DNA of 64,000 nucleotides from Blastocatellia bacterium (GTDB lineage Bacteria; Acidobacteriota; Blastocatellia; Pyrinomonadales; Pyrinomonadaceae), in assembly GCA_003168335.1 (NCBI GenBank), contig PMSM01000014.1:186001-250000 (forward strand), given 5' to 3'. Below are positions 4,465-56,265 of the stretch, piece by piece. Position 1 is the first letter of the stretch. Each line of letters opens with the position of its first letter. The position numbers were made by a program, and so were the translations under genes. The notes beneath the pieces are model-generated. The model searched no databases and had not been told where the DNA came from. It was given only the letters and a program-made list of their open reading frames with translations.

Positions 4465-4472
4465 TCTTCAAG

Positions 4473-4551
4473 GTTCGACAAACTTCAGTTTGTCGCCTCT
4501 AACAATAAACTCGCCTATGAAAGTCATCGACAAACTGAAGTTTGTCGAACT
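4473..4551. repeat. Paired palindrome, family A, between hbd and the zinc-ribbon gene
   Basis: Two palindromes, CGACAAACTTCAGTTTGTCG at 4476-4495 and its exact reverse complement at 4528-4547, with matching GTTC/GAAC flanks. They are separated by 32 bases. On the minus strand the element begins directly after the hbd stop codon. Such inverted pairs of short palindromes resemble REP doublets. Confidence 0.9.
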
Positions 4552-7598: not shown

Positions 7599-7672
7599 AT
7601 TGATTCAATGCTCACTCATCAAGATGATTTAGCATGACTGTTAATTCCAAAGAGTGTCAAGCGGGCCGATCT

Positions 7673-7782
7673 TGTCAGAAGCCCGACCCGGGGTCCCCGG
7701 CGGGGCAGCCCCGCTGGGGTGGGGGCGGTCAGGGAGGGCCCGGTTAGTTAAGGAGCCCTTGCTCACGCGCGGGCTTCTGACA
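7673..7782. repeat. Inverted-repeat element (family D) carrying a nested 31-nt hairpin
   Basis: Perfect 13-bp terminal inverted repeats TGTCAGAAGCCCG (7673-7685) and CGGGCTTCTGACA (7770-7782). Internal words GGAGGGCCCG and AGCCCTTGCTCACGCGCG recur, rearranged, inside mutM at 13491-13568. Positions 7690-7720 hold a GC-rich hairpin (GGGGTCCCCGG...CTGGGGT) that also occurs inside a different element at 51647-51677. The element lies 14 bases beyond the glycosyltransferase stop codon; the rest of the gap up to the thiolase start shows nothing clear. Confidence 0.85.
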
Positions 7783-7796
7783 CGTGACCCGCGCTA

Positions 7797-9449: not shown

Positions 9450-9513
9450 AGAATCATTCAGCTCTGCGCAGGCGCACGTGGAAACCGGCTCTGTTCACGC
9501 CGAGGGCGTGAAA

Positions 9514-9658
9514 TGTAATAGCCGGGGCCAACGCCCCCGGGCAGGGCCACAATCAATTTCGACCCTGAAAGGGTCGCACAGCAGCTGCCATTATGCGACC
9601 CCTTCCGTGTCACGCTCATTTTGTCGTCGGTTCCGGGGGCGTTGCCCCGGCTATTACA
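9514..9658. repeat. Inverted-repeat element (family E) with inner hairpins
   Basis: Left arm 9514-9540 (TGTAATAGCCGGGGC then AACGCCCCCGG) and right arm 9633-9658 are inverted copies with one extra base in the left arm. Inside is a smaller hairpin CGACCCTGAAAGGGTCG at about 9558-9574, and a TTCACGCC/GGCGTGAA hairpin lies just outside at 9494-9512. It occupies most of the 391-bp gap between two divergent genes; nothing else is evident there except the promoter-bearing 100 bases before 9841, where I see no strong consensus. Confidence 0.8.
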
Positions 9659-9840
9659 GGCGACCCCTGAGGAGTCGTACCAAATACCCACCCGCCCACG
9701 CAGGTGTTACTGACCTTATTGCCTGAATCATGAACCAGACGGTCAATCACCCCTAATTGAAAACCATTACGCGCGAGTGCTAGACTCTGCACTTGAAATT
9801 CAACCCCTTCATCATTCTGACTCTAGCGGATTAATCAATC

Positions 9841-12324: not shown

Positions 12325-12943
12325 CCTCAAACCTGTCTCTGGTGACCTTTTGTCTGTGGAACTCTGTGCGACCTCTGCGTCTCTGTGGTTAAAGAACGCC
12401 TGACAAACACTTACCAGGGAGACACATCGCGGCAGACCGCCAACCAGAAGGTAAAGGGCTCAACGAGCCCGCGATAGGGGGCGGCATGTCAGTAGCCCCG
12501 GGCCTAAGCCCGGGGTTTGAACACCACCCCCGACCTCAACCACGCGAAGCGGGCGAAAGGAAATTGGTACGGAACCGCTTGCGGTAGCAAGCGGGTCTTA
12601 CGAGCAACGTTACCCTCTCGCTAACGCGAGGGGTTCTGTACCTGTCGCCCCTTACGGGCTGGGAATTCTTTCGCTGCTCGTTCCCCGGGCTTACGCCCGG
12701 GGCTACTTATATGCCGCCTGCTTTGCAGGCTGGTAGGGCGTTTTCTCTTACGGTCGAAAAGTTTGTCAGAAAACAAGAACTCACGAACTTGCTACACAGA
12801 AAACTGTGGAGGTTGCACCGAGAAGTGATGACACGCCGGCCTACGGCACACGCTTTGCCAAATTAATCCTCGTAAGAAACCAGGCTTTTGCGCAGTTGCT
12901 TCGTCTGGGCCTTTCAAGACACGAAAAGAGGAGGACTAAAGTC
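12325..12943. other. Long intergenic region, palindrome-rich, no gene seen
   Basis: A 619-bp stretch. Its first 70 bases hold a run of CTCTGTG words (12353-12389) that look like a degenerate direct repeat. The middle is the compound palindrome described separately. The last 200 bases have lower GC and may hold the promoter of the DUF3309 gene, but I see no convincing consensus. No open frame with coding character is visible. Confidence 0.6.
12479..12715. repeat. Compound inverted-repeat element (family F) with several inner hairpins
   Basis: About 35-bp arms at 12480-12515 and 12683-12714 are inverted copies (GGCGGCAT, then AGTAGCCCCGGGC and TAAGCCCGGGG); each arm contains its own CCCCGGG...CCCGGGG hairpin. 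Between them are further hairpins: ACCGCTTGCGGTAGCAAGCGG near 12572 and CCTCTCGCTAACGCGAGG near 12612. The whole can fold as a multi-branched cruciform. Confidence 0.8.
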
Positions 12944-13287: not shown

Positions 13288-14196
13288 ATGCCGGAGCTTC
13301 CTGAAGTAGAACACGTCGTGCGCGCTCTGCGGCCCGTGGTCGTCGGCCGGCGTGTCCTGGCGATTGAGATCAAACTCTCGAAACTAATCGCTCCGACTGC
13401 GTCGTCTCTCTTTAATCGCAAACTCAAGGGAGGAACGATTACTGGCGTTTCGCGCCGCGGCAAATACATCCTGATCGAGCTAGCTCGTAAGCGGGCCCTC
13501 CCTTACGGTCGGGCTTCTGACACGTCTGGCGCCCGCGAGTATCAGAAGCCCGCGCGTCAGCAAGGGCTTGTTTTGATCACGCACCTCCGTATGACCGGCA
13601 AGTTTCTTTCCCTGGCTGCTGACGATCCATTGCCGAAACACGCGCATGCGATTTTCTATCTCGACAACGACCGGCGTCTGGTCTTTTGCGATCAGCGGCA
13701 GTTCGGGGTGATGAAGTTGGTATCACGAACGCGCTTAGCTAAGACGAAAGGGATCAGCGAACTCGCGCCTGAACCATTTGGCGAGGACTTCACTTCGTCT
13801 TACCTGAAAGAAACACTGTCTCGTTCGCGCCGCACCTTGAAAACGCTTTTATTGGATCAGACGAAGGTGCTGGGTCTGGGAAATATCTATGCCGCCGAGG
13901 CTCTGTTTCGCGCGGGCGTCAATCCGTTCAAGATCGCTGCGACTCTTTCATCAAAACGAACTGAGCGCTTGCATCAGGCAATTCTTGACGTGCTGAGCGA
14001 TGCCATCACAGACAGTTCCACGTCCCGAGTCAACCTGGAACAGCCAAACGGTTTTTCTTACGGCGAAGCCTTTGAAAGATTCTGGCAGGTTTACGAACGC
14101 GAAGGCGAACCTTGCGTTAATTGCGGCGCCCGCATAAAACGTGTGACGCACGGTGGGAGATCAACTTACTGGTGCCCGAGGTGTCAGCCGCGATAA
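13288..14196 (+). CDS. mutM: Formamidopyrimidine-DNA glycosylase (MutM/Fpg) with in-frame insertion
   Basis: Removes oxidised purines such as 8-oxoguanine and nicks the abasic site. The catalytic N-terminus PELPEVE is intact (Pro2, Glu3, Glu6), RRGKY carries the conserved lysine, the GNIYAAEALFRAGVNP helix is present, and the C-terminal zinc finger is CVNC...CPRC. The protein has 302 residues, about 27-30 more than typical. The extra segment is residues about 67-93 (ARKRALPYGR through KPARQQG) between ILIEL and LVLITHLRMTGKF, encoded by a palindromic repeat at 13491-13568. In the known fold this is a turn between strands of the N-terminal sandwich, so activity may survive. The ATG at 13288 fixes the catalytic proline. 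Confidence 0.93.
   Translation: MPELPEVEHVVRALRPVVVGRRVLAIEIKLSKLIAPTASSLFNRKLKGGTITGVSRRGKYILIELARKRALPYGRASDTSGAREYQKPARQQGLVLITHLRMTGKFLSLAADDPLPKHAHAIFYLDNDRRLVFCDQRQFGVMKLVSRTRLAKTKGISELAPEPFGEDFTSSYLKETLSRSRRTLKTLLLDQTKVLGLGNIYAAEALFRAGVNPFKIAATLSSKRTERLHQAILDVLSDAITDSSTSRVNLEQPNGFSYGEAFERFWQVYEREGEPCVNCGARIKRVTHGGRSTYWCPRCQPR
13491..13568. repeat. Family-D palindromic element inserted in mutM coding sequence
   Basis: Two inverted halves, GGTCGGGCTTCTGACA at 13508-13523 and ATCAGAAGCCCGCGCG at 13541-13556, with outer words GGGCCCTCCC (13493-13502) and CAGCAAGGGC (13558-13567) also present in the intergenic copy at 7673-7782. The 78-nt length is a multiple of three and no stop codon is introduced. 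Confidence 0.85.
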
Positions 14197-31000: not shown

Positions 31001-34000
31001 CACTGCGACGCTGAACGTTTCAGCGCCAACCGTTGTCGTGAACGAGGTGCTTGCTGACCCGCCCACCGGAATTAACGGCGACGCCAACCGTGATGGCACG
31101 CGCGACTCTTCACAGGATGAGTTCGTCGAGTTGGTTAATTCGACGGGCGGCGGCATCAACATCTCAGAGTGGACGGTGCGAACGCATTCGACTACCAGCT
31201 CGACCGAAACCGTGCGGCATACTTTTGCTGCCAACACCACGCTACCCGCGGGCCAGGCGATGCTCGTTTTCGGTGGCGGCACTTTCAACCCAGGCGATCC
31301 GTTGTTTGGTTGTGCTCAAGTAGTGAAGGCCTCATCCGGCGGTTTGTCGCTGACAAATGGCGGGCTGACTATCCTGGTGCGCGACGGATCGGGAAATCTG
31401 GTCACTCAGTTATCTTACGGCGGCACGACCGGTTTGAACGGCGGTAATGCTCAATCGCTGACGAGGTCGCCAGACATTACCGGCAACTTTGTGCTGCACA
31501 CGACGATTGCAGGGGCTCGAACATTCTCTGCGGGTTTGCAGACTGATGGCACGCCCTTTGGAAACTGCCCCGGCCACCCGGCTACCGTCACGATCTCGCC
31601 GCCGTCTAGCACCATTAACGTCGGGCAGACGACGCAGTTTACGGCGCAGGCTTTCGATCAGTTCGGCCGGGCGATGACTGGTGTGGCGATCACCTTTGCC
31701 TCAGACAACACCAGCGCGGCGCCCGTTGATTCAGTCGCGACCAACCCCAGCACGGGAATCGCGACGGCAAATGTCTCCGCGCACAATCCCGGAACAGCGC
31801 ACATCAACGCCTCGGTCACCGACGGCACCACGACGGCCCATAGCCCTCAGGCAGCGCTGACTGTAAACGGTCCGTCGTTGAGGATTAGTGATGTCAGCCT
31901 GAATGAGGGCGACTCTGGCGCAACCACTTTCACTTTCACGGTCAGCCTTTCCCAGCCGGCGCCAAACGGGGGCGTCACGTTCAATATCGCGACGCAGGAT
32001 GGTACGGCAACCACCGCCAACAACGACTATGTTGCGCGCAGTCTAACCGGACAAACGGTCGCCGCGGGTCAGTCGACTTATGCCTTCGCGGTAACTGTCA
32101 ACGGAGACTTGAGTATTGAGCCAAACGAAACGTTCTTTGTGAATGTCACGAACGTCACCGGCGCAAGCGTCGCTGATGCTCAAGGAATAGGGACGATCCT
32201 AAACGACGATAGTCCGTCGCTGAGCGTTAACGATGTCTTGGCCAATGAAGGCAACGGAGGCACAACAACGTTCAGGTTCACAGTTACTTCGACGTTATCC
32301 GCGCCGGCTGGCGGAATCACGTTCGACATTACGACGGCTGATGGAACAGCTACTACGGCGGGCGGCGACTATGTCCCTCGCAGTCTGACGAATCAGACAA
32401 TTCCCGCCGGGCAACAGACGTACACGTTCGACGTGACGGTGAACGGCGACACGCTCGTCGAGCCAAACGAGACTTTCACCGTCAACATCACGAATGTCTC
32501 TGGCGCGAGCGTCGCGGATGCTTCGGCAATGGGAATAATTCAAAACGATGACACTGCTAGTCTGGTCATCAGTCAGGTCTATGGCGGCGGCGATAATTCG
32601 GGCGCCCCTTTCCGCAATGATTTCGTCGAAATTTACAACCACGGCGTGACGACCGTGGACTTCTCGATCACGCCCTACTCGATCCAGAGTGCGAGCGTCG
32701 GGTCGAGTTTTGGTACTAATAAGACGAACCTGACCGTCGGCATGATTACTCCCGGCCGATACTTCCTGGTTCAGGAATCAGGCGGCACGACAAATGGCGT
32801 GGCCCTACCAACTCCTGACGCCACCGGCACAATCGCCATGGCCGGCACCGCCGGCAAAGTCGCCCTGGTCGCGGGCACGACAGCGCTCGCAACTGCGACT
32901 TGCCCCGGCGATGACGGCACGTCACCGTTCAATCCGAGCAGCGCCGCCATCGCCGACCTTGTCGGCTATGGCAACAGCGCTACCACCACGGGCCATTGCT
33001 ATGAAGGGCCAGGCCCCGCGCCCACTCCGTCGAACACCACGGCCGCCTTCCGCAAGGCGGGCGGCTGCGTAGACACCGACGACAACGCGGCTGACTTCTT
33101 TGTCGCCACGCCAAATCCGCGCAACACGAGTTCTCCAATTGGAGACTGCAAACCGGACGTCACCATTAATGACGTCACGGTCACCGAAGGAAACACGGGG
33201 ACGGTAAACGCGACCTTCACCGTTACGCTATCGGCTGCCAGCGCCAATACTGTCACGGTGAACTTCGCGACAGCCGGTGGAACGGCGACTCACCCGGCGG
33301 ATTATCAATCGACCAGCGGCACACTCACCTTTAATCCTGGCGACCTGACTAAGACGATCACGGTGCTGGTCAACGGCGACCCTTTGGACGAGCCGAACGA
33401 GACTTTCTTCGTTAATCTCACAAATGCTACAAACGGGGTGATCGTCGACAATCAGGGTCAGGGCACAATCAACGACAACGATCCCACTCCGTCTCTCTCA
33501 ATCAACGACCTGTCGGTCGCTGAAGGGGACGCCGGCACCACGCCGGCGACTTTCACGGTCACGCTTTCCGCCGCCAGCGGTCAGACCGTGACGGTGAACT
33601 ACGCGACGGCCGATAACTCTGCCGTTGCCGGCAGTGATTATCAGCCGGCCAGCGGCATGCTCACGTTCAACCCCGGGGATACGACCGAGACCGTCACCGT
33701 GCTGGTGAATGGCGATACAACGTTTGAACAGAACGAAACTTTCTTCGTCACTCTCAGCGGTCCGACGAACGCTACGATTTTAGATAGTCAGGGCCAGGGC
33801 ACGATCTTTAACGATGACGCTGCGCCGCCAACTCCGACACTCTCGATCAATGATGTCAACATCGTCGAAGCCAACAGCGGCACGTCCATCGCCACTTTCA
33901 ATGTCACGCTGTCACCCTCGAGCAGCCAGACCGTCACGGTGGATTTCGCGACGGCAAACGGTACGGCAACTATCGCGGGAATTGATTATCAGTCAGCGAC

Positions 34001-37000
34001 GGGCACGCTCACGTTCAATCCGGGCGATACCAGCAAGCCAATCAGCGTGACCATCAACGGCGACACTCTGGTCGAACCTGATGAAACGTTCCTTCTAAAC
34101 CTGACGAACGCGACCGGCGGGGCGACGATCGGAACACCATTCGGCACCGGAACAATCCAGAATGACGATACGGCCAATCTGGTGATTAGTCAGGTCTACG
34201 GTGGCGGCGGTAATACGGGAGCTACCTTTAAGAATGATTTCATAGAAGTCTTCAATCGAGGTACGACGACCGTTGATGTTGCCGGGTGGTCGGTCCAATA
34301 CACGTCTGCCGCAGGTACAGGCGCCTGGTCAGTCACTCCGTTGTGTGCGGCCGGTCCGTGTCTGCTTCCTCCGGACCGTTACTTCCTCGTGCAGGAGGGC
34401 CAGGGCGCGGGCGGCACCAGCAATTTACCGACGCCCGACGCTCTGGGAACTATCATCATGACCACGGGCGCCGGAAAGGTGGCCCTTAGTTCGAGCACGA
34501 CGCCGTTTTCCGGTTCGTGCCCATTGAACACCAATATCTTCGACATAGCAGGCTATGGAGCGTCGGCGACATGCTTTGAAGGAACGGGACCTACCGCCGC
34601 GCCGGACAATTCAACCGCGGACTTCAGAAAAGCGGGTGGCTGCACCGACACGAACGACAACGCTGCTGACTTTTTCGTCTCTGCGCCGTTTCCGCGCAAC
34701 ACGAGTTCGCCGACTAATAATTGTACGGCCGGCCCTGCCCCGAACCTGACGATCAATGATGTCACCGTCGCCGAAGGCAATAGCGGAACGACTACGGCAA
34801 GCTTTACCGTCAGTTTGTCCGCGCCGGCGCCGTCGACTGATGTCACTTTCGATATCGCCACCCGGGACGGCACCGCCACAACCGCGAACAGCGATTATGT
34901 TGCGCGGACCCTGACGAATCAGATTATCCCCGCCGGTCAGACGACGTACACATTCAGCGTGACTGTGAACAGCGATCTGACGATCGAATCTGACGAGACT
35001 TTCTTTGTTAACGTGACGAATGTCAGCGGCACGCCAGTCACCGATGGTCAGGGCCTGGGCACAATTCAAAATGATGACCTGCCCACACTTTCAGTCAATG
35101 ATGCGTCAGCACCCGAAGGCAATAGCGGAACAACTACGATCACCTTTACGGTCAGCCTATCCGCACCCGCTCCGGCAACTGTCACCTTCGATATCGCAAC
35201 CCAGGATAACAGTGGCACAGTCGCGGACAACGATTACCTCGCGCGCAGTCTTAGCAGTCAAACGATCGCCGCGGGCCAAACGACTTACAAGTTCGCTGTA
35301 ACAGTGGCCGGCGATCTGAACGTCGAGGCAAATGAAAGCTTTTTTGTGAACGTGACGAACGTCTCGGGAGCAACTATGGTCGACGGGCAGGGAGTGGGCA
35401 CAATTCAAAACGACGACAGTCGGGTGCTTTCCATTACGCCAGCGGTATCAGTTGCGGAAGGCGACAGTGGATTGACTCTGGCAACCTTCACCGTCACACT
35501 CTCGCCCGCCAGCAATCAGACCATTACTGTGGACTACGCTACCGCCAACGGAACCGCAACCGCCGGCAGCGACTATCAGGCGACCAACGGCACCTTGACC
35601 TTCAGCCCGTTGGAAACGACTAAGCCGATCAATGTCGCCGTCAGCGGTGACCCGCTGGTTGAACCTGACGAGACATTTACAGTTAGTCTGTCGAATGCAT
35701 CAGCGAATGCCTCGATCTCCGCTCCCCAGGGAACCGGCACTGGAACGATCACCAACGACGACGCGCCTTTGGTGGTCATCAGTCAGGTCTATGGTGGTGG
35801 CGGAAACAGCGGTGCCACGCTCAAGAATGACTTTATTGAAGTATTTAACCGCGGCACCACCACTGTCGACATCGCGGGTTGGTCGGTTCAGGAGACCACC
35901 GACACCGGCTCGGCAACCTGGTCAGTAACATCCCTATGCACCACCGGTCCCTGTTTCCTTGTGCCGGGTAAGTACTTCCTGGTGCAGGAAGCCGCCGGCG
36001 CAGGTGGCGCGTCGAATCTACCCACGCCTGACGCGACGGGCACCATCAACGTGAACGGGACGGCCGCCAAAGTCGCTTTAGTTTCCTCCACCACAGCGCT
36101 CACGGGATCATGCCCATCCGGCGCGAACATTCTTGATCTCGTCGGCTATGGCAACACCGCGTCCTGTTTCGAAGGAACGGGTCGAGCCCCAGCGCCCTCA
36201 AATACAACGGCCGATTTTAGAAAGTCGGGAGGATGCCTTGACACCAACGATAACGCGGCTGACTTTGTAACGTCGGCGCCGAATCCGCGCAATAGCAGTT
36301 CGGCAGCGAACGATTGCAGTACTGGCTTCCGGCCCGACATCAGCATCAGTGACCTAACTGTGACTGAAGGAGACAGCGGGACTGTTAACGCAACCTTCAA
36401 TGTCACCCTCTCCGCCGCCGGCGCCCAGACCGTTACCGTAGCCTTTGCAACTGCAGACGGCACCGCGACCGCCGGAGCGGATTATCAGGCAAGCAGTGGG
36501 ACGCTGACTTTCAACCCGGGTGATCTGGCCAGGCCGGTTACCGTCCAGGTCAACGGCGATACTCTGGATGAAGCGAACGAGACGTTTTTCGTCAATCTAT
36601 CGAACGCGACAAGCGCGGCGATCCTCGATGCCCGGGGGCAAGGGACGATCACCGATAACGATCCGACACCATCGCTTTCGATTAATGATCTGCCGAACAT
36701 TCCGGAAGGTGATACCGGAACAAGTATCGCTAACTTTACCGTTAACCTCTCTGCCGCGAGCGGCCAGACGGTAACTGTGAATTACGCGACTGCCGACGGC
36801 ACTGCCACTGTAGGCAGCGATTACGCGTCAACAAGTGGGACGTTAACCTTCAACCCCGGCGAGACTAACAAGCAGATTCCAGTCACCATTAACGGCGACA
36901 CGACCTTCGAGCCGAATGAAACCTTCTTCGTCAATCTTACGACGCCGGTGAACGCCACTATCTCTGATACACAGAGCCAGGGAACAATCACCAATGACGA

Positions 37001-37940
37001 TGCGGCGCCGCCAACGCCGAAGATAACCATTGACGATCCCGGCATCACCGAGGGGGATACCGGAACGAAGACTCTCAACTTCACGGTTTCACTCTCGATT
37101 CCGAGTGCACAGATCGTGACGGTCGACTACGCGACTGCCAGCGCCGCGCCCGCAAGCGGGATCGCCACTGCCGGCACGGACTACGTAGTTGCTGCGGGAA
37201 CGGTCACTTTTAATCCCGGGCAGCAGAGCAAGCCGATCTCGATCACAATCAATGGTGACAAACTCGTCGAGCCTAACGAGAATTTCTTTGTGAATCTAAG
37301 CAACGCTTCGGCGGGGTCGACTATCACCGATCCGCAGGGTGTGGGCACTATTACCAACGATGACACGCCGCTCTTGGTTATCAGTCAAATTTACGGTGGT
37401 GGTGGAAATGGTGGGGCTGCCTATCAGAATGATTTCGTTGAGCTCTTCAACCGGGGGACGACCACTGTTGATTTCTCTATTACACCTTACTCAGTGCAAT
37501 ACGCATCGAGCACAGGTACTTTCAGCTCGACAAACAAATTTGATGTCACTACTGGATCGCTGACGCCCGGTCAGTACTTTTTAGTGAAGCTAGCCACTGG
37601 TGGCGCCGTGGGGCAAACTCTTACTGCAGACATAACGAACCCCGCCATTAATATGTCGGCGACTGACGGCAAGGTCGCGCTCGTCATAGGAACGACGGTT
37701 GCCACAACAGCTTCCGGCTGTCCAACTGCCGTGACAGTTGCCGATTTGCTTGGCTACGGTACCGCCAATTGTGCCGAAGGAACTGCGACTGCTGCTCTCA
37801 GTGCGACGAAGGTGGCAATCAGGAATAACCACGGCTGCACAGACACGGGTGCTAACTCGACCGACTTCACGACCCCAACGGTGAACACATCAAGTGCGCT
37901 TCCACGAAATTCAAGTTCGACCTTGGCTCCTTGCCCATAG
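28062..37940 (+). CDS. Giant exported repeat protein (PD40 propeller, TIGR03437, lamin-tail, Big and Calx-beta domains)
   Basis: A 3292-residue secreted protein starting at GTG 28062 (GGAG 7 bases upstream), with a signal peptide at 1-28. Domains by eye: PD40/WD40-like propeller repeats (about 35-400), a TIGR03437-type domain (about 413-630, starting ITVLNGASFG), lamin-tail domain 1 (634-815), two Ig-like Big domains (819-990), lamin-tail 2 (991-1170), another Big domain (1173-1270), then 11 Calx-beta domains interspersed with four more lamin-tail domains starting at 1501, 2040, 2570 and 3105. Lamin-tails 1 and 2 carry a DANxDGTRD calcium-type loop. From 1501 on the order is lamin-tail plus three Calx-beta, repeated with a period of 530-539 residues. 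Calx-beta domains bind calcium in known proteins. No membrane anchor or sorting motif is seen at the C-terminus. Adhesion or matrix function is inference. Confidence 0.88.
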   Translation: MSRPRILALIFAGATALCLIGLRGARTQSIGLRRVTDTTEEGININPSISGDGRVLAFESTEDIAGAGGTDHFRAIRANIAVDPATLLQMGGTRAVAPAISRDGSRIAFASKDDPLTTNPDGNSEIFLCDGAKLTQVTNTSPGDLANRVTNGNFQPSVSDDGRFIAFSSNRDLAGQNADANLEIFIYDALVSSFTQLTNTSGIVGSSDAKISGNGAIVAYIRDSGTTPSAERDLLEQLRTGFGPATVLAEKVRSLAMTYGRAISSDGTRVVYSAEIATNSDQVFLFDGRGGTATRQITSLGVRTTEVPLHPTISGDGTHIAFAARRSVPGAPANSDGGVELYVLDIPSSQLSKITNAPANATADVVSSLNDDGSIVAFNFPRLLSGAVANSDSANNSEIYVTGTPSRPPFGAITVLNGASFGKEPSTTKAIAPDSIAVAIGGALANSTRQSQKFSNGTFPTNLGGTTVTVNGRAAQILFVSPGQVNFLVPSQTEIGTADVVVANSENFTSVGTVPTLRSAPGVFTTIGFGAGPGVILNSEGLQEGPFDPTNGNLRLTIFATGARNASQAVVSMGGRVVNAELVLPSPDMAGLDEVTVLVPADLRGAGTVDLFIQSDSRASNPVSVTFSGDSSRDIALNEVLVDPPPGTAGDANHDGTRDSSQDEFVEFVNATTRDLDISGYQLFTRSSTTTTDTLQHTFAGGTILPACSAIVVFGGGTFDPANPVFGGSQVVKASTNGLSLTNSGGVVTLHNQSGAIVTFLSYGGSTALNGQANQSLTRSPDVTGPFTLHQSATGNGGRAFSPGTQVNGAPFIACPPIARIDVSPSSAAIEAGAKQQFTAQGFDSANNPVAGVIFSWQSSNTSVATIDQNGLATSSTAGSTEIRAFARGVQSAPATLTVREVQRVLMRVDVTPESPTIPAAGAQQFTARGIDQFGNEIIGLTFAWESSNTSAATIDQTGLATGIAQGQSTIKATAQNVSGTATLNVSAPTVVVNEVLADPPTGINGDANRDGTRDSSQDEFVELVNSTGGGINISEWTVRTHSTTSSTETVRHTFAANTTLPAGQAMLVFGGGTFNPGDPLFGCAQVVKASSGGLSLTNGGLTILVRDGSGNLVTQLSYGGTTGLNGGNAQSLTRSPDITGNFVLHTTIAGARTFSAGLQTDGTPFGNCPGHPATVTISPPSSTINVGQTTQFTAQAFDQFGRAMTGVAITFASDNTSAAPVDSVATNPSTGIATANVSAHNPGTAHINASVTDGTTTAHSPQAALTVNGPSLRISDVSLNEGDSGATTFTFTVSLSQPAPNGGVTFNIATQDGTATTANNDYVARSLTGQTVAAGQSTYAFAVTVNGDLSIEPNETFFVNVTNVTGASVADAQGIGTILNDDSPSLSVNDVLANEGNGGTTTFRFTVTSTLSAPAGGITFDITTADGTATTAGGDYVPRSLTNQTIPAGQQTYTFDVTVNGDTLVEPNETFTVNITNVSGASVADASAMGIIQNDDTASLVISQVYGGGDNSGAPFRNDFVEIYNHGVTTVDFSITPYSIQSASVGSSFGTNKTNLTVGMITPGRYFLVQESGGTTNGVALPTPDATGTIAMAGTAGKVALVAGTTALATATCPGDDGTSPFNPSSAAIADLVGYGNSATTTGHCYEGPGPAPTPSNTTAAFRKAGGCVDTDDNAADFFVATPNPRNTSSPIGDCKPDVTINDVTVTEGNTGTVNATFTVTLSAASANTVTVNFATAGGTATHPADYQSTSGTLTFNPGDLTKTITVLVNGDPLDEPNETFFVNLTNATNGVIVDNQGQGTINDNDPTPSLSINDLSVAEGDAGTTPATFTVTLSAASGQTVTVNYATADNSAVAGSDYQPASGMLTFNPGDTTETVTVLVNGDTTFEQNETFFVTLSGPTNATILDSQGQGTIFNDDAAPPTPTLSINDVNIVEANSGTSIATFNVTLSPSSSQTVTVDFATANGTATIAGIDYQSATGTLTFNPGDTSKPISVTINGDTLVEPDETFLLNLTNATGGATIGTPFGTGTIQNDDTANLVISQVYGGGGNTGATFKNDFIEVFNRGTTTVDVAGWSVQYTSAAGTGAWSVTPLCAAGPCLLPPDRYFLVQEGQGAGGTSNLPTPDALGTIIMTTGAGKVALSSSTTPFSGSCPLNTNIFDIAGYGASATCFEGTGPTAAPDNSTADFRKAGGCTDTNDNAADFFVSAPFPRNTSSPTNNCTAGPAPNLTINDVTVAEGNSGTTTASFTVSLSAPAPSTDVTFDIATRDGTATTANSDYVARTLTNQIIPAGQTTYTFSVTVNSDLTIESDETFFVNVTNVSGTPVTDGQGLGTIQNDDLPTLSVNDASAPEGNSGTTTITFTVSLSAPAPATVTFDIATQDNSGTVADNDYLARSLSSQTIAAGQTTYKFAVTVAGDLNVEANESFFVNVTNVSGATMVDGQGVGTIQNDDSRVLSITPAVSVAEGDSGLTLATFTVTLSPASNQTITVDYATANGTATAGSDYQATNGTLTFSPLETTKPINVAVSGDPLVEPDETFTVSLSNASANASISAPQGTGTGTITNDDAPLVVISQVYGGGGNSGATLKNDFIEVFNRGTTTVDIAGWSVQETTDTGSATWSVTSLCTTGPCFLVPGKYFLVQEAAGAGGASNLPTPDATGTINVNGTAAKVALVSSTTALTGSCPSGANILDLVGYGNTASCFEGTGRAPAPSNTTADFRKSGGCLDTNDNAADFVTSAPNPRNSSSAANDCSTGFRPDISISDLTVTEGDSGTVNATFNVTLSAAGAQTVTVAFATADGTATAGADYQASSGTLTFNPGDLARPVTVQVNGDTLDEANETFFVNLSNATSAAILDARGQGTITDNDPTPSLSINDLPNIPEGDTGTSIANFTVNLSAASGQTVTVNYATADGTATVGSDYASTSGTLTFNPGETNKQIPVTINGDTTFEPNETFFVNLTTPVNATISDTQSQGTITNDDAAPPTPKITIDDPGITEGDTGTKTLNFTVSLSIPSAQIVTVDYATASAAPASGIATAGTDYVVAAGTVTFNPGQQSKPISITINGDKLVEPNENFFVNLSNASAGSTITDPQGVGTITNDDTPLLVISQIYGGGGNGGAAYQNDFVELFNRGTTTVDFSITPYSVQYASSTGTFSSTNKFDVTTGSLTPGQYFLVKLATGGAVGQTLTADITNPAINMSATDGKVALVIGTTVATTASGCPTAVTVADLLGYGTANCAEGTATAALSATKVAIRNNHGCTDTGANSTDFTTPTVNTSSALPRNSSSTLAPCP

Positions 37941-47076: not shown

Positions 47077-47080
47077 TTGA

Positions 47081-47151
47081 TGTCCGACAAACTTCAGTTT
47101 GTCGCTTGATAGTCTTAATGAGACCAACGACAAACTGAAGTTTGTCGGACA
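47081..47151. repeat. Paired palindrome, family A, between nuoD and nuoE
   Basis: Arms at 47081-47104 and 47128-47151 are exact 24-bp inverted copies around the palindromic core GACAAACTTCAGTTTGTC. The 23-base spacer is AT-rich. The right arm ends 4 bases before the nuoE ATG, so any ribosome site for nuoE would lie inside the hairpin. Confidence 0.92.
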
Positions 47152-51580: not shown

Positions 51581-51697
51581 TGGAGTGCGGCGACCTGTCG
51601 CCGCTTTGGTTCAACCTGCTTCAGCCATGAATAAGCGGCGACAGGCGGGGTCCCCGGCGCGGCAGCCGCGCTGGGGTGCTCAAGTCGCCGCACTCCA
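51581..51697. repeat. Palindromic element (family H) with nested 31-nt hairpin, between nuoG and nuoH
   Basis: Left arm 51581-51607 (TGGAGTGCGGCGAC then TGTCGCCGCTTT) pairs with a right arm split into 51633-51645 (AAGCGGCGACAGG) and 51681-51697 (AAGTCGCCGCACTCCA). The split is caused by 51647-51677, a GC-rich hairpin that also occurs inside the family-D element at 7690-7720. The right arm ends 6 bases before the nuoH start codon. Confidence 0.85.
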
Positions 51698-56171: not shown

Positions 56172-56175
56172 AAAA

Positions 56176-56265
56176 TGTCTGACAAACTTCAGTTTGTCGT
56201 GTTCGTTGGTTGTTGTTCAGGCTATTCATTGCGAGCAGTAGCGACAAACTAAAGTTTGTCGAACA
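56176..56265. repeat. Paired palindrome, family A, between nuoL and nuoM
   Basis: Palindrome arms at 56176-56199 (GACAAACTTCAGTTTGTC core) and 56242-56265 (GACAAACTAAAGTTTGTC core) are inverted copies with a few differences. The left arm begins 4 bases after the nuoL stop and the right arm ends just before the GAGG ribosome site of nuoM. Confidence 0.9.

Follow-up and report, generated by a model that had tools for sequence, protein, structure and literature searches.

How a DNA-repair enzyme comes to carry palindromic DNA within its reading frame, and whether it can still function, is the question raised by the mutM gene in the window, i.e. the whole stretch of 64,000 nucleotides analysed here. 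Very probably the insert is an intragenic REPIN: an inverted pair of REP units from a dispersed, non-autonomous family, presumably mobilised by a Y1 (HUH) transposase, whose copies can be accommodated in flexible protein loops if they are stop-free and add a multiple of 3 nt.

MutM and its insert

The gene mutM (fpg; 13288..14196, plus strand) encodes a bifunctional formamidopyrimidine-DNA glycosylase/AP lyase of 302 amino acids, which scores above the cut-offs of NCBIfam PRK01103.1 (275.9 bits, cut-off 212) and TIGR00577 (266.5, cut-off 203.3) and contains the Pfam domains Fapy_DNA_glyco, H2TH and zf-FPG_IleRS. An equivalog HMM match, the catalytic N-terminus, H2TH and the zinc finger, which together define a bifunctional MutM/Fpg, are all found in it. 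When the host protein is aligned to 21 further MutM proteins drawn from many phyla, every invariant residue is present (E3, K59, M102, R137, N199 and C276/C279/C296/C299), as a preliminary description of this DNA had stated for the catalytic and zinc residues. The same alignment exhibits a 25-column gap in all 21 other proteins, corresponding to an in-frame insert of 25 codons (13489..13563, plus strand, about residues 68-92, edges accurate to within a few codons). The addition had been put at about 26 residues; it is indeed in frame, its size relative to the aligned proteins being 25. The nearest empty sites are found in relatives with about 75% protein identity, which limits how precisely the insertion boundaries can be placed.

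At the DNA level, the 78-nt palindrome previously described at 13491-13568 is present and comprises two inverted repeat units. Unit 1, TGTCAGAAGCCCGACCGTAAGGGAGGGC, lies on the minus strand (13495..13522) and matches the family pattern without mismatches; unit 2, TATCAGAAGCCCGCGCGTCAGCAAGGGC, lies on the plus strand (13540..13567) and shows 2 mismatches. Between them, sequence and fold place a spacer at the tip of a hairpin (13523..13539). The segment folds with -47.1 kcal/mol (z = -4.45), a value reached by none of 200 shuffled sequences.

An intergenic copy of the element is found at 7671..7782; its left end is degenerate (7671-7686), and its right unit (7755-7782) lies on the minus strand. 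The words said to be shared between the two elements (7673-7782 for the intergenic one) can be recognized: positions 7754-7783 are 93% complementary to 13539-13568 over 30 nt, and 7755-7785 match 13495-13525 at 84%. Nested in the intergenic element is a 33-nt GC-rich repeat (7689-7721), which occurs again 44 kb away at 51646-51678 and at locus L036.

The AlphaFold2 model of MutM has a mean pLDDT of 91.3. The insert, with values of 55-59, is modelled as a loop between the strands 60-67 and 94-99, in agreement with the earlier placement between two strands of the N-terminal domain. The best PDB matches of the model are MutM-DNA complexes (TM-score 0.92-0.95 by target). Outside the loop, dN is about 0.10-0.19 and dS above 1.3 between insert-bearing species and relatives (crude NG86 estimates with dS near saturation). 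Because of the normal predicted fold, the position of the insert as a loop and the low dN compared to dS outside it, we favour the reading of an intact, constrained gene for a working enzyme with a tolerated loop. MutM is predicted to stay folded with the insert and probably retains its activity.

The repeat family in the host genome

The family unit has the form TGTCAGAAGCCCG-NN-CGTNAGNGAGGGC, the inner part existing in two versions, ACCGTNAGGGAGGGC and GCGCGTNAGCAAGGGC. With up to 3 mismatches allowed, the 28-nt unit is present in 146 copies in the 5.16-Mb host genome, compared to 0 for the reversed control. A search of the whole genome for GCGGGCTTCTGACACG with up to 2 mismatches gave 76 matches versus 2 in the control, and within the window the 14-mer CGGGCTTCTGACAC was found 4 times (0.65 expected), a number reached in 0 of 100 shuffles. 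The DNA word is thus far from unique to mutM, well over 100 copies being present.

Sampling by genome stretches yielded 70 unique sites, mostly inverted pairs of about 61-80 nt. Their layout is plus-minus in 37 cases and minus-plus in 5, the remainder being 27 single units and 1 tandem minus-minus pair; the order in mutM, minus then plus, is therefore the less usual one. By the ORF test 54 of the 70 sites are not genic. A palindromic unit of 20-40 nt in high copy number, frequent inverted pairs with a short spacer and a mostly extragenic location are the features of REP sequences and REPINs, and this family shows all three. Most units carry the tag GAAG in front of the stem (CAGAAGC, 81), a minority GTAG (CAGTAGC, about 11). 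A GTAG at the hairpin foot marks the GTAG-tagged REP superfamily, of which this family may be a member. A 9-bp repeat is possible as a target-site duplication at one site (L179) and none is seen at the other sites shown, so that we claim no such duplications.

The family extends to relatives of the host. Counts of the 28-nt unit are 32-226 in six congeners and 0-14 in four other genera. Relatives share the family core with GTAG, CTAG and TTAG tags, tag variants being common in G128, a genome of a sister genus; among them, the GTAG-tagged version is common in G128 and present in the congener G001.

The window holds further repeats. A separate palindrome family, CGACAAACTTCAGTTTGTCG, has at least 7 copies, several of them as inverted pairs (817-841, 4471-4547, 47080-47147, 56175-56261). 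About 570 nt upstream of mutM lies a GTAG-tagged inverted pair (CAGTAGCCCCGGGC..., 12480-12718) with 167 nt between its arms and further palindromes inside. At 31904-37364, diverged repeats of about 340 nt form a long array that probably encodes a large repeat protein.

The MutM loop in related genomes

Comparison with mutM of close relatives, which had been proposed as a check, reveals both empty and occupied sites. The nearest insert-free proteins are those of the sister genus g9, which are 73-76% identical after the loop. The loop (RRGK..HLRM) is short in all proteins fetched from other genera of the family except that of G121, which has 6 extra residues, and in further family genomes the paired match coordinates leave no space for an insert. 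A scan of genome contigs yielded only distant MutM loci, and these served as insert-free references. Extra residues conserved in MutM of distant taxa, which would speak against a mobile insert, were accordingly not observed.

Within the genus, all five congeners with a readable loop (G001, G002, G003, G005, G006) carry extra residues; the mutM of G004 stops at a contig edge before the loop and lies outside this comparison. G006 and G002 contain an exact unit of the host mutM family in the same position and orientation as the host. In G001 the loop is formed by a unit of another palindrome family, GAGCGCGGACGTCCCGTCCGC, which has 140 copies in the host genome, and in G003 by a related palindrome, GCGCGGGCATCCTGCCCGC. 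The extra sequence of G005 is unassigned to a palindrome type, its stretch HGRAVGTR being faintly similar. A tree of four genes groups G001 with G002 and G003 with G006 as sisters, so that each of the sister pairs contains both palindrome types.

In-frame elements in other genes

Copies of the translated element in unrelated proteins had been predicted, and they were found in about 15 genes (peptides GRASDT, QKPDRQGG, SPTVREG and others). At 16 of the 70 sampled sites, belonging to 15 genes, an ORF runs through the element and extends beyond it on either side. Pfam domains detected in the computed ORFs back most of these genes, which encode a zinc-type alcohol dehydrogenase, MetG, MutM, pyruvate:ferredoxin oxidoreductase, a penicillin-binding/SpoIID protein, the formiminoglutamate deiminase HutF (two sites), an aconitase-family protein, an AddB-like protein, Mfd, a PBP1-type transglycosylase/transpeptidase, a radical SAM protein, BshC, an RNA uracil-5 methyltransferase, an alpha-2-macroglobulin and the E1 component of 2-oxoglutarate dehydrogenase. 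Three of the 15, encoding MutM, Mfd and the AddB-like protein, are DNA-repair genes, a number from which we claim no enrichment. ORFs through the elements at L185 and L172 were judged spurious. A second palindrome family has through-ORFs at 6 of 49 sites, including PurL and an alpha-2-macroglobulin (two sites); 2 of these 6 ORFs lack Pfam support.

Stop codons occur in no more than one of the six frames of each unit, and the frames used in genes, read from the sequence, are all three forward and two reverse ones. Among the genic pairs 5 of 6 have a core of 2 mod 3 length, compared to 9 of 31 among the intergenic ones (Fisher p = 0.02, with only six genic pairs). Such an excess is expected if only frame-keeping insertions survive.

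HutF resembles MutM in that one of its loops is occupied differently between species. Recognisable units with at least three tag types are found in loop 1 in the host and G003 (GAAG), G006 (GAAA), G001 (TTAG/CTAG) and G128, which belongs to another genus (GAAA); G131, G014 and G126 have no insert there. REP-derived sequence is present in loop 2 in the host, G002 and G121. The hutF gene of G001 (L256, L258) matches in six pieces that REP units and runs of N separate from each other, which perhaps reflects an insertion-broken gene or an assembly gap.

In Mfd of the host a single unit occupies a loop which the congeners likewise have in a longer form and genus g9 in a short one; a search of the congeners' Mfd loop for decayed REP sequence recognised no unit. 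The MetG element sits in a linker and is weak evidence, because this linker is hypervariable across all relatives. In the MetG linker before the tRNA-binding domain of congeners and the sister genus (L260-L269), the peptide HATEADAVPG is repeated and might represent another coding palindrome family.

Possible mechanism and mobiliser

REPINs have been proposed to move in the form of single-stranded hairpins through the action of a Y1 tyrosine transposase (PMC3116915), and by analogy transposition of the mutM element by such an enzyme is most likely. A REPIN would be copied as a single-stranded hairpin by the Y1 (HUH) transposase. If the copy adds a multiple of 3 nt it can leave the frame open in either orientation, because the unit is stop-free in nearly all frames. 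Insertions out of frame or in the structural core would be purged by selection, and copies in flexible loops or linkers would persist and then decay like ordinary coding sequence. In MutM, the element would extend the turn from the strand after the active-site lysine to the strand leading to the DNA-wedge methionine. We infer that the insert is neutral.

The search for a cognate transposase covered 14 Y1_Tnp loci in the host genome and 30 further loci in five relatives. Many of the host matches have flanking inverted repeats of their own, and none of the 14 is flanked by units of the mutM family (assembly 96.6% complete). In the relatives, related units on both sides were found only at L214 (G001) and L209 (G003), where they are not clearly element ends. 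The family units at L214 lie outside what look like the closer palindromes of the transposase itself; L214 and L209 were rejected as cognate loci, the units being outside closer palindromes or having a different tag. As no host Y1 locus has family flanks, the mobiliser is a putative one; it may have been lost, be unassembled or act in trans. The flanking sequences of one of the host Y1 transposase genes, L034, recur in the window as an inverted pair (about 9494-9540 and 9635-9658). This pair (9494-9660), starting with TGTAATAGCCGGGG, is likely a REPIN with L034 as its likely cognate transposase.

Alternative explanations

The presence of a lengthened loop in all readable congeners, and in almost no other genera, would also fit one insertion in the ancestor of the genus, rewritten later by decay and gene conversion from REP copies without any repeated insertion. 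The shared position and orientation of the units in G006 and G002 and the faint similarity in G005 agree with this. However, the palindrome type differs between the sisters G001 and G002 as well as between G003 and G006, the tags in loop 1 of HutF differ between the host, G001 and G128, and simple decay does not explain how one repeat family turns into a clean copy of another. We therefore regard a single ancestral insertion as rather doubtful. It is unlikely that the insert has been co-opted, so that the mRNA hairpin or the extra loop alters translation of MutM or its handling of DNA. The mRNA fold is far more stable than in shuffled sequences, the loop sits on a hairpin adjoining the DNA-wedge methionine, and every readable congener has kept some insert; but sequence and length of the insert vary among congeners, which together with the low confidence of the modelled loop does not suggest a conserved role, and many unrelated enzymes carry similar inserts.

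Adding 25 residues to a small catalytic domain could do damage, and mutM might be inactivated and on the way to a pseudogene. This is very improbable in view of the retained catalytic and zinc residues, the low dN relative to dS outside the loop between insert-bearing species, the reading frame that is intact in five species and the fold modelled with high confidence. Misassembly is frequent at repeats, and the mutM gene of G004 does stop at a contig edge; nevertheless, an assembly or binning artefact has hardly any likelihood, as five congener genomes exhibit differing in-frame extra residues at the same site and the host contig, at 447 kb, is a long one. The intragenic REPIN in a tolerated loop is thus the explanation we prefer.

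Relation to known elements and significance

The preliminary description had compared the insert to Rickettsia palindromic elements and considered a similar process in this lineage, with a DNA-repair enzyme as its target, to be probably new. The process is alike, since those elements too are palindromic repeats in frame in apparently functional proteins, an analogy taken from PMC3733652. The element type is a different one: the lineage is unrelated, and the REP units with their tag and dimer layout set the element apart by description, so that by its anatomy it is a REP/REPIN and not a Rickettsia palindromic element.

As a principle this is not new, because in-frame REPs in repair genes have already been published. 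According to Di Nocera and colleagues (2013, PMC3733652), REPs are located inside genes of several species, many of these being replication or repair genes; intragenic dimers give inserts of 20-30 residues, and recB carries REPs at about one site in two Xanthomonas species. The GTAG- and CGTC-tagged REPs described there resemble ours as short palindromic units, single or in inverted dimers, in frame in ORFs, and their hosts are often DNA-repair genes. Differences from that account are the mostly GAAG-tagged units, with GTAG, CTAG and TTAG being minor or occurring in relatives, the genic share of the sampled sites (16/70) with loops shared across several species, and the gene itself, MutM being absent from those named in the relevant main-text section. 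Typical REPINs (PMC3116915) are likewise inverted pairs that fold into hairpins of about 70 nt, in high copy number with related subfamilies. They are described as extragenic and accompanied by a cognate RAYT, whereas here about a fifth of the sampled sites are genic and a search of the host genome found no such RAYT.

The type of event is known, and it is unusually frequent in this acidobacterial genome. What is added here is a GAAG-tagged acidobacterial family with a high genic share, together with loops that different REP families have occupied repeatedly. It is conceivable, with a chance we put somewhat below even, that the REPINs of this lineage continually supply protein loops with sequence and that certain surface loops and linkers, in MutM, HutF (twice) and perhaps Mfd and MetG, are permissive landing pads, re-entered by different subfamilies across species and genera. 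If this is true, loop length and sequence in housekeeping enzymes would partly be written by a family of mobile DNA.

With empty, occupied and differently occupied sites in related genomes, the family is a clear example of selfish repeat DNA that is turning into part of working enzymes. The rate at which palindromes are converted into protein, the choice of tolerant loops and the neutrality of the inserts thereby become testable. The case also calls for caution, as an odd loop in an acidobacterial enzyme may stem from recent mobile DNA and not be an adaptation.
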